Source: Tsukamurella sp. 8F (GTDB lineage: Bacteria; Actinomycetota; Actinomycetes; Mycobacteriales; Mycobacteriaceae). Taken from it: 64,000 bases of DNA. The position numbers and the translations under genes were made by a program. Shown piece after piece: positions 29,326 to 33,956 of this stretch. The first letter of the stretch is position 1; every line of letters begins with the position of its first letter. The notes beneath the pieces were generated by a model, which saw nothing but the letters and a program-made list of their open reading frames with translations, did no database searches and was not told the DNA's origin. The stretch covers positions 1 through 64,000 of the forward strand of contig NZ_JARFTP010000024.1 in the NCBI RefSeq assembly GCF_029167375.1, in the 5' to 3' direction.

Positions 29326-30906
29326 TCAGCGTCGACGCCGCACGAGACGGGTGAGCGGACCGGTGGCGCCTTGCAGGTCCCGGGCGACGAGTCGCGCCGC
29401 GGTGCGGCCCGATGCACCGCTGACGCCTCCGCCCGGGTGCGTGGACGCGCCGGTCAGGACGAGCCCGGGCGCCCCCGGGACCCGCTGGCCCGCCAGCTCG
29501 GGCAGGGGCCGGAACAGCAGCATGTCGTGCAGCGTCATCTCCACGTGCATCACGTTCCCGCCGACGAGGCCGAGTTCCGATTCGAGTGTGTCGGGCGTCT
29601 GCACGTGCCGGTGCCGGACGGCGGCGGAGAGACCGGGAGCCCACCGATCCGCCTCGGCGAGCACGCGGTCCGCCTCGGCCGCCGCGGTGTCGGGCCAGGA
29701 GCCGGTGCGAAGACGGTATGGATACCACTGCGACCACAGCGTCACCGAGTGTTCGCCGGGCGGAGCGATCGACGGGTCGAGGGTCGAGAACGCCATCGAC
29801 AGCACCGCGGGACGCGTGGGCGTCAGCCCCGCGAGCATCTCGCCGCGGGCCCGGGCGAGCTGCCCGCGGTCGGACACGAGCAGGCCCAGACCCGCCTGGT
29901 CGGACGCGGGCACACCGTCGAACGCGGGCATCGTGGTCGTCCCCAAGCGCAGCACCATCCCGACGCCGGGCCCTACCTCGATCCGGCGACGCCAGTTCGC
30001 GACAGACGTGCGTCCGCCGGCCTCGAGCAGGTCCAGCGTGGTGAGGATGTGGCAGCCGGCGAGGACCGTGCGGGCGTGGACGGGCCCGGCCGCGGTCTCG
30101 ACGCGCCATCCGTCGCCGTCGAGGGCGAGTGCGGTCACGGCCCGTCCCACGTGGACTGTGGCACCGTCGGAGCCGAGACGCGAGAGGAGAGCCGACGTAA
30201 GGGCCCCGCTGCCGCCGATCGCACGCCCGGGCGGTAGGTCGTGCATCAGCGCGGCGAAGCCGACCATCGGCGCGGTTCCGGGCTCGTTCATCGCGGGACC
30301 CGACTGCGAACCGAACCACGCGAGCGCCGCCTTGAGGCGCTCGTCGTCGAAGTAGTCGTCCAGTAGTGCGTCCCCGGACTGCAGGAACGCGCGGGACATG
30401 CCGGCGACGGTGTCCCTGCCGCGCGCGGGCCAGAACGCCCGCCCCAGGCCGGCGGGGGTCGCGGCCGTGCCGAACGCCGACATCATGGCCCTGGCGCGCG
30501 GGCGCCAGTCGGTCACGAATCGGCGATATGCGCGCGCGTCGCGGTCGCCGGAGGCCCGGGCGATCGATGCGCAGGTCGCGTCCAGGTCGACACGGAAGAC
30601 GATCGGCGGGGCGTGTGGCTCCTCGGGAGGCGGGGGAGCGAACGCCCATGGGTCGCAGTCCAGGTAGGTGAGGCCGTGGTCCGCCAGCTGCAGTTCTTCG
30701 ACGATGCCGGTGTGCCGGATCATCAGGTGTGCGGAGGAGCCGCGGTCGACGCGGTATCCGGGAAAGCGCTCGACAGTGGATACGGCCCCACCGGGTACGG
30801 AGTCCCGCTCGAACACGGTGACGGAGTGTCCAGCTCGGGCGAGGTACGCAGCCCCTACCAGCGCGTTGTGACCGGACCCTACGACGGCGCAGTCGACGTC
30901 GGTCAC
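29326..30906 (-). CDS. Phytoene desaturase-family FAD-dependent oxidoreductase
   Basis: A 526-residue flavoprotein of the CrtI/PYROXD2-like group. The N-terminal dinucleotide site is VVGSGHNALVGAAYLARAGHSVTVFER and the C-terminal FAD motif includes LVLTGASTHPGGGVSGASGR. The region GPAMNEPGTAPMVGFAALMHD is typical of this group. Whether it acts on a carotenoid or another polyene cannot be told; no phytoene synthase is nearby, although the polyprenyl synthase is about 2 kb away. The GTG start overlaps the stop of the upstream GNAT gene (GTGA). Confidence 0.88.
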   Translation of the reverse strand: MTDVDCAVVGSGHNALVGAAYLARAGHSVTVFERDSVPGGAVSTVERFPGYRVDRGSSAHLMIRHTGIVEELQLADHGLTYLDCDPWAFAPPPPEEPHAPPIVFRVDLDATCASIARASGDRDARAYRRFVTDWRPRARAMMSAFGTAATPAGLGRAFWPARGRDTVAGMSRAFLQSGDALLDDYFDDERLKAALAWFGSQSGPAMNEPGTAPMVGFAALMHDLPPGRAIGGSGALTSALLSRLGSDGATVHVGRAVTALALDGDGWRVETAAGPVHARTVLAGCHILTTLDLLEAGGRTSVANWRRRIEVGPGVGMVLRLGTTTMPAFDGVPASDQAGLGLLVSDRGQLARARGEMLAGLTPTRPAVLSMAFSTLDPSIAPPGEHSVTLWSQWYPYRLRTGSWPDTAAAEADRVLAEADRWAPGLSAAVRHRHVQTPDTLESELGLVGGNVMHVEMTLHDMLLFRPLPELAGQRVPGAPGLVLTGASTHPGGGVSGASGRTAARLVARDLQGATGPLTRLVRRRR

Positions 30907-31577
30907 CCGGCGGGGCCGGGTTGCGGGGCGGCCGATCGCGCGGAGGCGGGTCGGGACGCCAGCGGCAGGGTGCGCCCGAGGACGGCGAAAGGGCGGGGGT
31001 CGCCGGAGAAACGGAAGTCGCGCAGGACGTCGGTGAACCCACAGCGCCGGTAGAGGCGCCAGGCGCGGTTCTCCTCGCCGGGGACCTCGGGCGTCGAGAG
31101 CAGGACCCGGGGCTCGGGGCGGTCGGTGAGCAGTGCATGCAGCAACCGGCTGCCGATACCGTGGCCCTGCGCGCTCGGGTGCACGTGCAGTTCGGTGAGT
31201 TCGAAGTACCGGGCCGACAACTCGTCGACCTGGCGAGCGCCGTAGCCGCGTTGTCGCAGCCCGAGCCGGAGCTGGTGGTTCCACCACTGATCCCGCTCGC
31301 CGCTGTAGCCGTACGCGATACCCACCAGATGGTCGACTGCCCCCTCCGGCGTGGGCAGCGCGGTGATCGCGCCGAAGGCGGCGAAGCCGTCACGTCCGAG
31401 GTGCTCGCGCCACATGGGTGCGCGGTGGGTCTCGGTCCCCCGCGGATAGTCCATCGCGGTCACGTAGATCTCCAGCGCAGCGGGCAGCCACAGGGTTGCG
31501 TCGTGCGGTGAGAGTTCGACGATCCGTGTGTCGCGGTAGTCGGCGGCGGGCGCGCCGGGTCGTGCTGCCGAGTCCAT
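30903..31577 (-). CDS. GNAT-family N-acetyltransferase
   Basis: A 224-residue GCN5-related acetyltransferase like Rv2170. The acetyl-CoA site is ELTELHVHPSAQGHGIGSRLLHAL (motif A with the Q/R-x-x-G-x-G/A pyrophosphate loop), followed by EENRAWRLYRRCGF (motif B). The acceptor is unknown; the M. tuberculosis relative has been linked to acetylation of a metabolic enzyme. It is the first gene of a two-gene unit with the FAD oxidoreductase. Confidence 0.88.
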   Translation of the reverse strand: MDSAARPGAPAADYRDTRIVELSPHDATLWLPAALEIYVTAMDYPRGTETHRAPMWREHLGRDGFAAFGAITALPTPEGAVDHLVGIAYGYSGERDQWWNHQLRLGLRQRGYGARQVDELSARYFELTELHVHPSAQGHGIGSRLLHALLTDRPEPRVLLSTPEVPGEENRAWRLYRRCGFTDVLRDFRFSGDPRPFAVLGRTLPLASRPASARSAAPQPGPAG

Positions 31578-31634: not shown

Positions 31635-31662
31635 TTGACGTGTCGGGGACCCAGGCTATATT
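31635..31662 (+). promoter_or_regulatory. Strong -35/-10 promoter upstream of the HEPN-family gene
   Basis: TTGACG (31635-31640) and TATATT (31657-31662) are 16 bases apart, the best housekeeping-like promoter in the window. Transcription should start near 31669, exactly where the LexA-like box begins, giving a leader of about 115 bases to the ATG at 31785. Confidence 0.7.
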
Positions 31663-31670
31663 AGAAGGTA

Positions 31671-31686
31671 TCGAATGGAAGTTCGA
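31671..31686 (+). promoter_or_regulatory. LexA-like SOS box on the HEPN-family gene promoter
   Basis: TCGAAT-N4-GTTCGA matches the mycobacterial/corynebacterial SOS box TCGAAC-N4-GTTCGA with one change in the twelve defined bases. The symmetry extends outward to TATCGAA/TTCGATA (31669-31675 and 31682-31688). A further half-site GTTCGATAAC lies 20 bp downstream (31701-31710). The box covers the predicted transcription start, a position where LexA would block the promoter. LexA binding is inferred. Confidence 0.7.
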
Positions 31687-31784
31687 TAAACGGGTCAGTT
31701 GTTCGATAACCTGCGCCAGACGTGGCGTGTCCACCGAGCGCGGCCCGGTGCCGGCGGGCTGGCATGGAACGAGGGAAGCGTTAC

Positions 31785-32354
31785 ATGTCAGACCCGTCCG
31801 GTACGAAGACGGTGACGGATCGAGGCTCGCGAAAGGGGGCGGACATGACCGAGACGACGACGCCGGCGATGGCCGGGGCGGTGCCGCAGGGGGCAGAGGC
31901 GAAGGCCGCGGTGTATACGGCGCATTCGCGAGGCGATGTGCTACGCGGTGTGCGCGCGAGCCGCACCGGTCGGGCGCGTGCGGCGAGCACCCGCACGGGT
32001 TCACTGGCGATGCTCGACCGAGCCGACCAGTTCCTGTCCCGCGCCGGCGGGGAGGCGCCCACAGAGGACCAGTTCCGCGAGATCTATCTGGCGGCACTGC
32101 GCGGTGCGGCCGCCGTACTCGCCGAGCGGGAGACCGGGGTTCGACGTCCTTCACGCAACGCCTGGCTGAGGCTGGCCAAGGCGGCACCGGCGTACCAGGA
32201 GTGGGCGTCTTACTTCACGGCGGTGTCCGGGGTGGTAGCGGCTCTCGAGACGACGTCGGGTCGCACCGTGTCTCATGATGAGGTGGCTACCCTGCACGCG
32301 CGGGTCCAGACCTTCCTGAACGCGGTCGAGGCGGATCTGGAGGCGGCGGCCTGA
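31785..32354 (+). CDS. SAV_6107-family HEPN-domain protein
   Basis: A 189-residue helical protein whose C-terminal part (about residues 70-189) matches the actinobacterial SAV_6107 HEPN family: LAMLDRADQFLSRA, REIYLAALRGAAAVLAERE, RNAWLRLAKAAP, EWASYFTAVS and VQTFLNAVEADLE. HEPN folds bind nucleotides or cut RNA, but the Rx4-6H RNase motif is not seen here. The N-terminal 65 residues are Thr/Ala/Arg-rich and probably disordered. The first ATG has GAGGGAAG upstream; a second ATG at 31845 also has a G-rich ribosome site and may be used. A promoter with an SOS-like box precedes it. Confidence 0.82.
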   Translation: MSDPSGTKTVTDRGSRKGADMTETTTPAMAGAVPQGAEAKAAVYTAHSRGDVLRGVRASRTGRARAASTRTGSLAMLDRADQFLSRAGGEAPTEDQFREIYLAALRGAAAVLAERETGVRRPSRNAWLRLAKAAPAYQEWASYFTAVSGVVAALETTSGRTVSHDEVATLHARVQTFLNAVEADLEAAA

Positions 32355-32561
32355 CTCGAGTCCGGCGGGGGCCGAGTGAGCAGGGGAAGCGGTCCGATCC
32401 ACACCGCGCGGCCGGGTTCTCAGCGTGACGCGCGGTAGTAGACTTGCAGCAGGTCAGTGGTCCCGGGCCCGGAAGCCTCGTATCATTGGCGGTGGGATCC
32501 GTACGGAAGCGGATTCTGTACAGGAACAAGGTCGACCCCATTAGTGCTAAAGGAGGGGAAC

Positions 32562-32969
32562 GTGCCACTCTCCGAGCACGAGCAGCGCATGCTCGATCAG
32601 ATCGAGAGCGCGCTCTACGCTGAGGACCCCAAGTTCGCATCGAGCGTGCGCGGGAGCCGGATCTCACGGGTTCCGGGGAAGCGTCGGATCTTTGCAGGGG
32701 TCGGTTTCATCGTTGGCCTGGTACTTCTCGTCACCGGCCTGTTGCTTCAAGCGGTCCAGCTCCAGGTGGCCGTCGGCATCGTGGGGTTCCTCCTGATGTT
32801 CGGCTCCCTGGTCTACCTCCTTTGGTCCGGCGGGACCAAGGGGCCGGTCGGCGCGGTCCGTTCAGACGGCACCGTCGGCCCGAAGCCCGGCAAGAAGAGC
32901 TCCAAGGGCGGCGACGGTCGCAGCTTCAGTAAGCGTATGGAGGACCGTTTCAGGCACCGGTTCGAGTAG
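32562..32969 (+). CDS. DUF3040 membrane protein (Rv2169c-like)
   Basis: A 135-residue small membrane protein. The start PLSEHEQRMLDQIESALYAEDPKFASSV is the hallmark of DUF3040. Two adjacent transmembrane helices follow (IFAGVGFIVGLVLLVTGLLL and VAVGIVGFLLMFGSLVYLL), then a basic, Gly/Lys-rich cytoplasmic tail ending RFRHRFE. The GTG start has an excellent AGGAGGGG ribosome site. Such genes are found just upstream of mraZ throughout Mycobacteriales; the function is unknown. Confidence 0.9.
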   Translation: MPLSEHEQRMLDQIESALYAEDPKFASSVRGSRISRVPGKRRIFAGVGFIVGLVLLVTGLLLQAVQLQVAVGIVGFLLMFGSLVYLLWSGGTKGPVGAVRSDGTVGPKPGKKSSKGGDGRSFSKRMEDRFRHRFE

Positions 32970-33382: not shown

Positions 33383-33412
33383 CGTGGAAAGCCCCGAAAT
33401 TTCGTGCGCGTC

Positions 33413-33446
33413 GTGGTTGAAAGTGGTGAATCGTGGGGTAAAGTGG
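33413..33446 (+). promoter_or_regulatory. MraZ box array (four GTGG repeats, 10-bp period)
   Basis: GTGG occurs at 33413, 33423, 33433 and 33443, each exactly 10 bp apart with variable six-base spacers. MraZ is known to bind short G-rich direct repeats (TGGGN class) with 10-bp phasing upstream of its own gene. The array sits about 75 bp before the mraZ start and just downstream of the predicted promoter, so it fits autoregulation of the cluster. Confidence 0.8.
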
Positions 33447-33521
33447 GGCGCAGCGGAGAGGGAGTACGACCCAGGGGCCCGATCCGGAACACACCCCCAG
33501 AGCGGGAGGCGGGAGGTTGCC

Positions 33522-33956
33522 GTGGCGTTCACGGGTACCTACACGCCGAAGCTCGACGACAAGGGTCGCCTGACCCTGCCTGCCAAGTACCGCGACGAAC
33601 TCGCGGGAGGAATCACCATCACGAAAGGACAGGACCGCAGCCTCACCGTCTACCCCAAGGCGGAGTTCGAACGGATCTCCGAGAAGGCCGACGCGATCGA
33701 GTGGACCGACCCGGCCGGGCGCGCCTTCTACCGCAACTTCTTCGCCAGCTCCGACGAGCAACGACCCGATGCCCAGGGCCGGATCACCCTGTCGAACGAT
33801 CATCGACGCTACGCAGGCCTGACCAAGGAATGCGTGGTCGTGGGATCCCGGCGGTTCCTGGAGATCTGGGACGCGGAGGCCTGGGACGTCTACCAGGCCG
33901 CGCATGAGGAGGACTACTCGCAACCCCAGTCGGACGCCCTCAGATCGATCTTCTGA
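33522..33956 (+). CDS. mraZ: Transcriptional regulator MraZ
   Basis: A 144-residue AbrB-fold DNA-binding protein and first gene of the dcw cluster. Both MraZ half-domains are visible: [21 protein letters not shown] near the N-terminus and the second repeat, [21 protein letters not shown], in the middle. It forms octamer rings that bind phased repeats upstream of mraZ. The GTG used has a GGGAGG ribosome site; a longer ORF from 33384 would run through the operator repeats. Confidence 0.96.

Follow-up and report, generated by a model that had tools for sequence, protein, structure and literature searches.

A conserved LexA box at the promoter of a HEPN_SAV_6107 gene in Tsukamurella sp. 8F, with a PafBC-type element and polymerase gene neighbours in relatives

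The window analyzed here, the whole stretch of 64,000 nucleotides from Tsukamurella sp. 8F (contig NZ_JARFTP010000024.1, positions 1 to 64,000, forward strand), contains a gene of the HEPN_SAV_6107 family whose predicted transcription start is covered by a LexA (SOS) box. Comparison with relatives makes control of this promoter by LexA highly probable. The reading that we favour, and consider reasonably probable as a whole, is that of a damage-inducible promoter, governed by LexA and, where its element is kept, also by PafBC, that drives a HEPN protein lacking the ribonuclease (RNase) motif and serving as an accessory of translesion synthesis. The product matches the Pfam family (PF18726, E = 4.4e-22; 78.9 bits vs the curated cut-off of 27.2), as proposed in an earlier sequence-only reading of the same DNA.

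The box in the window, TCGAAT-GGAA-GTTCGA, is one base away from the mycobacterial box TCGAAC-N4-GTTCGA, has outer symmetry TATCGAA/TTCGATA at 31669-31688, and follows a promoter in which TTGACG and TATATT are separated by a spacer of 16 base pairs (bp); all these elements, described in the sequence-only reading, are present as stated. The sequence by itself does not clearly set the box apart from chance: the 4.68-Mb genome contains 30 one-mismatch sites to TCGAACN4GTTCGA and no exact ones, with 7 for the reversed control pattern, and in the window there are one such one-mismatch site and 8 sites with at most 2 mismatches vs 3.0 expected. The box was accepted as real because it is conserved in relatives, not from the statistics of a single genome, and a chance palindrome was rejected on the same grounds.

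Within the genus, PF18726 is present in all 16 genomes, and in each of them TCGAA[T/C]N4[G/A]TTCGA stands immediately after an invariant TATATT. One half-site is off consensus, the left one in 15 genomes (TCGAAT) and the right one in L020 (ATTCGA). Past the box, the leaders of the window, of L016 and of the remaining 14 genomes are very unlike one another, so that the box is retained amid changing surroundings. The additional half-site GTTCGATAAC, noted in the sequence-only reading, exists but is unconserved across the 15 other genus members; it is probably due to chance and was rejected as a second operator. Between the box and the start codon, 14 of the 16 members (L018-L031) share a leader block, about CATCGGATTGGCGCRCAYGTTCTGGCGCCGG, possibly a structured or translated leader, which is missing from the window (31687-31784) and from L016. 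Among the lexA regions of the genus (L032-L046), 14 of 15 loci carry a pair of imperfect boxes (e.g. GAGAACTTCTGTTCGA and TCGAACAGATGTTTGT) at a distance of 47 bp, and L039 carries a single one.

In the family, the gene was found in 141 of 151 genomes, as a single copy per genome, and of the 131 homologues from beyond the genus the analysis covered 130, all but that of G155. Within 450 bp upstream of the domain, the best LexA match is exact in 83 of these 130 homologues, has one mismatch in 18, two mismatches in 14, and at least three in 15. Shuffled sequences (20 per sequence) yield 0, 0.5 and 3.95 matches for the exact, one-mismatch and two-mismatch classes, and the next 450 bp upstream, taken as a control, yield 1, 0 and 7. 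In the small genomes of genus g3, probably Corynebacterium, matches with 1-2 mismatches are found in all nine homologues read. The proposal of LexA control in the sequence-only reading gains strong support from conservation in the genus (16/16), the family (101/130 with 0-1 mismatch) and the class (38/40 regions, see below).

The view, held in the same reading, that LexA control has not been described for this family is probably mistaken. According to the accessible text of PMC5055667, cg2381 belongs to the 48-gene LexA regulon of Corynebacterium glutamicum of Jochmann et al. 2009, its response to ciprofloxacin (M = 3.86) equals that of recA (3.86), and mraZ of this species is cg2378. C. glutamicum carries PF18726 (it served as a control in the profile search), and cg2381 is most likely the HEPN_SAV_6107 gene, judging by conserved gene order and Pfam content. 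The locus resembles the actinobacterial LexA regulon in the box sequence and its position over the predicted transcription start, and that of C. glutamicum in particular, as the gene that is the same by synteny is a member listed in the accessible part of PMC5055667. It differs from the LexA regulon in the off-consensus half-site of the window's genus and in the absence of the gene from nine genomes of g30, probably Mycobacterium.

PF18726 occurs in 142 of the 197 class genomes sampled, which covers 72 of 91 genera; none of the nine g30 genomes has it. The 30 best loci of the 142 genomes with a match were read first; 40 larger regions from 29 families, mostly one or two per family, hand-chosen rather than random, partially overlap with them. 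A LexA box within 1.7 kb upstream is exact in 30 of the 40 regions and has one mismatch in eight, while downstream controls contain no exact and one one-mismatch box in 39. The two regions without a box are Streptomyces-like (L254 and L255), and TTGTCRGTG occurs there with 0 and 1 mismatch, respectively. Of 80 named loci, 75 were counted as Streptomycetaceae; here the 9-mer TTGTCRGTG is exact in 71, and the LexA box has one mismatch in two loci and is exact in none. Among the five other named loci, treated apart, L322 and L335 have an exact box; no LexA box was found within 420 bp at L285, L308 and L346. Promoters of recA in Streptomyces contain a motif like TTGTCAGTGGC. The class regions and the Streptomycetaceae counts together indicate that damage-type control is broadly common, with the balance of LexA and PafBC depending on the lineage.

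Many of these promoters have a second candidate element. The consensus tTGTCRgtg-N8-TannnT is given in the available part of PMC5656591 for damage-induced genes independent of LexA and RecA, and PafBC-dependent promoters are described, in what is accessible of PMC11804915, as combining a -26 motif with sigma adaptation. With 0-1 mismatch, this motif occurs within 520 bp upstream of 74 of 146 homologues, vs 0.2 per shuffle run. For 17 of 30 genera, half or more of the loci have the -10 of such a motif 7-8 bp upstream of the LexA box. Of the 146 loci, 59 carry the strict composite TGTCRGNG-N8-TANNNT-N7/8-TCGAAYN4GTTCGA and 74 the loose one (TGTC, TA...T, box), including nine of the 16 in the genus. 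Scanning the 151 whole genomes yields 59 strict composites in 58 genomes, and none with the reversed control; by coordinates, 58 of them lie at the HEPN gene, and in 57 of the 58 genomes no other gene has one. The only match in the window's genome is 31641-31686. PafBC input is very likely at the composite promoters of the family, and about an even chance in the window's species, where the -26 element has two mismatches with the TGTC core kept.

The single strict composite away from a HEPN gene (L408, G069:C25:145969) neighbours an open reading frame (ORF) that looks transporter-like by eye and unassigned ORFs; it was rejected as a second target, as inspection of the ORF list by eye, without a family scan, revealed no obvious damage gene. 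A helix-turn-helix (HTH) domain of the PafC type is present in 150 of 151 family genomes; the window's genome has five HTH_PafC matches (best 1.8e-33), some of which are perhaps other WYL regulators. The element and its spacing to the -10 are similar to those of PafBC/RecA-independent promoters such as P1 of mycobacterial recA. However, in mycobacterial recA the two controls belong to separate promoters, P1 and P2 (PMC5656591, accessible part), whereas at the HEPN locus a single promoter would serve both, the -10 and the box being 7-8 bp apart (18 bp in g23, the motif being absent in g3). In seven of eight g19 loci (L114, L145-L147, L149, L156, L159), a PafBC-like motif lies about 120-165 bp downstream of an exact LexA box, a layout resembling the two-promoter arrangement of mycobacterial recA.

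The role of the product is suggested by its relatives. In 19 of the 40 class regions (17 families), a dnaE gene of the error-prone type follows the HEPN gene, starting no more than 700 bp from where the HEPN domain begins; 15 of these HEPN-dnaE regions also have DUF6504 upstream. DinB is encoded downstream of HEPN in four regions (L224, L228, L230, L239), and two f18 regions (L233, L262) have an ImuB-like gene of the IMS family with DnaE after it, so that polymerase arrays, presumably co-transcribed with the HEPN gene, amount to 25 of 40 regions in all. For the dnaE of L251 the best model, 'error-prone DNA polymerase', scores 613 bits, under its cut-off of 939 and near the 602 bits of a DnaE1 model. 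The order HEPN-(methyltransferase)-DinB-DUF3040 is seen in L228, L239 and L230, and in L224 without the methyltransferase.

Each of the genomes G304 and G237 carries a pair of PF07733 genes, of which one adjoins HEPN. In a DnaE tree built from 19 of the 21 listed matches and carrying a long-branch warning, HEPN-adjacent DnaE (three rows) groups with a second DnaE from Streptomyces, outside both the DnaE1-like clade and the clade that holds the two DnaE2-like genes of the window's genome. The latter (G000:C41:10494 and G000:C28:22587; L273, L281) cluster together, and a one-mismatch LexA box (C41:9402) lies 1.1 kb ahead of the PF07733 domain at G000:C41:10494. As a second DnaE in G304 and G237, in a clade separate from DnaE1, the HEPN-adjacent gene resembles DnaE2B modules, and its place in the tree fits the DnaE2B group, to which it may belong. 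In the accessible text of section 20 of PMC12926913, the partners of DnaE2B are ImuB-C, PolY and RecA, with no HEPN protein among them; the term HEPN occurs 0 times in this paper. That DUF6504 might be 'ImuB-C' is an eye-level guess, for which comparing profiles of DUF6504 and of two ImuB-like proteins, based on shallow alignments, gave no support. Literature searches returned no paper linking the SAV_6107 family to polymerases or PafBC, and none for DUF6504; among the matches listed for PafBC, DnaE2 or mutasome, HEPN appears in none.

The best surviving alternative accepts the LexA-controlled promoter but takes the HEPN protein for a damage checkpoint or a toxin-like effector that targets RNA, slowing growth or division. 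This idea, suggested by the sequence-only reading, finds no support, and we regard it as unlikely. Conservation of the Rx4-6H motif in the SAV_6107 family is given as 'No' in Table 1 of PMC3710099, as far as this source is accessible. Consistent with that, there is no conserved histidine in the alignment of 146 homologues, and the Rx4-6H spacing is found somewhere in 94 of 186 sequences but never as a conserved column. No MNT-type antitoxin is present among the identified recurrent neighbour clusters of the 40 regions, in which most ORFs were not scanned. Moreover, outside the family the frequent partners of the HEPN gene are translesion polymerases. The missing RNase motif makes a translesion-synthesis accessory likelier than a toxin, and this role is proposed because the RNase residues are missing and genes for translesion polymerases adjoin the gene in many relatives. 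That the product assists error-prone synthesis, for example as an adaptor, seems to us slightly short of an even bet. The assignment to HEPN rests on Pfam, and a second look with VIA-align at the predicted model supports the HEPN fold. By family membership and predicted fold the protein is of the HEPN-M (SAV_6107) type, Pfam PF18726, which the available part of Table 1 of PMC3710099 lists as actinobacterial only, with Rx4-6H unconserved and with neither an architecture nor an operon given. Relative to this listing, the damage control and the polymerase neighbours seen in sequence comparison would be new.

A second alternative, which we hold to be very improbable, is that a repressor other than LexA binds the palindrome ATCGAA-N6-TTCGAT in the genus, the likeness to the SOS box being secondary. 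It could account for the half-site that is always off consensus in the genus (TCGAAT in 15 genomes, ATTCGA in L020), the symmetric outer bases in several members, e.g. GTGATCGAA...TTCGATCAC, and the lack of an exact consensus box anywhere in the window's genome. However, the exact LexA consensus occupies the same promoter position in many other genera of the family, the lexA and recA sites of the window's genome deviate more, and among validated LexA sites PMC9380542 (section 7, accessible part) includes one at Streptomyces venezuelae recA in which one half has ATTC. Least probable of all is that the box serves the divergent GNAT gene, with the HEPN gene a bystander: GNAT does adjoin in all 15 family neighbourhoods read and the box is about 93 bp from its start, but the 19 HEPN-dnaE class regions, where no GNAT-cluster gene was picked up, all have a 0-1-mismatch box upstream, and the fixed 7-8 bp distance between the -10 and the box orients the promoter toward HEPN.

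Several observations weigh against the combination of LexA, PafBC and translesion synthesis. On the side of LexA, the best match within 450 bp has three or more mismatches in genera g4, g5 and g8 (10, 2 and 2 genomes); a 0-1-mismatch box is found within 500 bp upstream in just eight of the 30 best class loci, and the remaining class boxes surface only when the search is extended to 1.7 kb, the presumed operon start. On the side of PafBC, the composite is absent in 11 of 30 genera; the loose form is seen in one of nine loci in g9, one of nine in g11 and none of eight in g19. In the genus, the TGTC core is lost in seven of 16 genomes and kept in nine, the window's included; compared with TTGACG, kept in 15 of 16, this suggests that PafBC input may be fading in the genus toward an ordinary -35, and may by now be weak or lost. 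PafC is present in the nine g30 genomes, which have no HEPN gene, so the gene is dispensable for a damage response. As to the role, no polymerase stands beside the HEPN gene in the family neighbourhoods (it lies between GNAT and DUF3040 in 15/15), and 15 of the 40 class regions have none in the searched stretch. As the window's own locus contains no polymerase operon, we do not class its gene as a mutasome member. Foldseek by itself found nothing in the PDB at E <= 0.001, its best match (8.6e-2) being a HepT toxin, and a shared fold shows no function.

The order GNAT-HEPN-DUF3040-MraZ-MraW is the same in all 15 family neighbourhoods; in three of them tblastn with the window's HEPN protein missed the gene, and a profile match stands there. 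The location beside the division cluster, mentioned in the sequence-only reading, is thus conserved, but it has little bearing on division, because in some other families dinB sits between HEPN and DUF3040; this suggests that the window's placement is left over from an earlier neighbourhood with dinB in it. The start codon of the gene is most likely the ATG at 31785, six bases past the end of the probable ribosome-binding site, and in 14 of 16 genus genomes GTG is found at the corresponding place. Coordinates of these features are listed in the Table.

Table. Features of the HEPN_SAV_6107 locus, in positions of the window
Feature	Coordinates	Strand	Evidence and remarks
GNAT acetyltransferase gene, divergent neighbour	30903..31577	-	Pfam; 15/15 family neighbourhoods
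-35 hexamer, sigma-70-type, TTGACG	31635..31640	+	read from sequence; 15/16 genus genomes, TTGACC in L016
PafBC/RecA-NDp-like -26 element GTGTCGGGG	31640..31648	+	2 mismatches to TTGTCRGTG; 8 bp upstream of -10
-10 hexamer TATATT, common to both promoter readings	31657..31662	+	16/16 in genus
LexA (SOS) box TCGAATGGAAGTTCGA	31671..31686	+	over predicted transcription start; genus, family and class conservation
Half-site GTTCGATAAC	31701..31710	+	extra half-site of the sequence-only reading
Probable ribosome-binding site GAGGGAAG	31771..31778	+	kept upstream in 15/16 genus genomes
HEPN_SAV_6107 gene, 189 amino acids	31785..32354	+	Pfam 5.7e-22 in the scan with its neighbours; HEPN domain in C-terminal half
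DUF3040 gene, downstream	32457..32969	+	Pfam 8.4e-27; synteny 15/15; true start probably within ORF
mraZ, first gene of the division cluster	33384..33956	+	Pfam 3.6e-37; synteny 15/15; ORF start uncertain

Under the favoured reading of a damage-inducible promoter, in the undamaged cell LexA would occupy 31671-31686 over the transcription start and block RNA polymerase. RecA filaments formed on single-stranded DNA would cause self-cleavage of LexA, and the promoter would open. Where the -26 element is intact, PafBC activated by single-stranded DNA would recruit sigma-A polymerase to the same start. The HEPN protein, once induced, may then act as a translesion-synthesis accessory through binding of protein or nucleic acid, with no cutting of RNA.

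Beyond the sequence-only reading, our analysis adds the PafBC-type element on the same promoter and the polymerase operons of relatives. A small gene of unknown function comes out with very consistent damage control by sequence; g30 (probably Mycobacterium), in which much of the work on the actinobacterial damage response is carried out, is without the gene, which may explain why it was overlooked. We tentatively suggest, at somewhat less than even confidence, that the SAV_6107-type HEPN protein belongs, so far unnoticed, to the core of the mutagenesis machinery of actinobacteria, as a catalytically dead HEPN adaptor working with DnaE2-type polymerases or DinB under the control of both known damage sensors, LexA and PafBC, in the window's family by way of one composite promoter. 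For some DnaE2B, section 20 of PMC12926913, in its accessible part, gives ImuB-C as the sole partner or none at all. The polymerase neighbours offer a way to ask which proteins beyond ImuA and ImuB complete DnaE2-type mutasomes, especially those of DnaE2B, and the composite promoter lends itself to testing how repression by LexA and sigma adaptation by PafBC may be combined at one start site.
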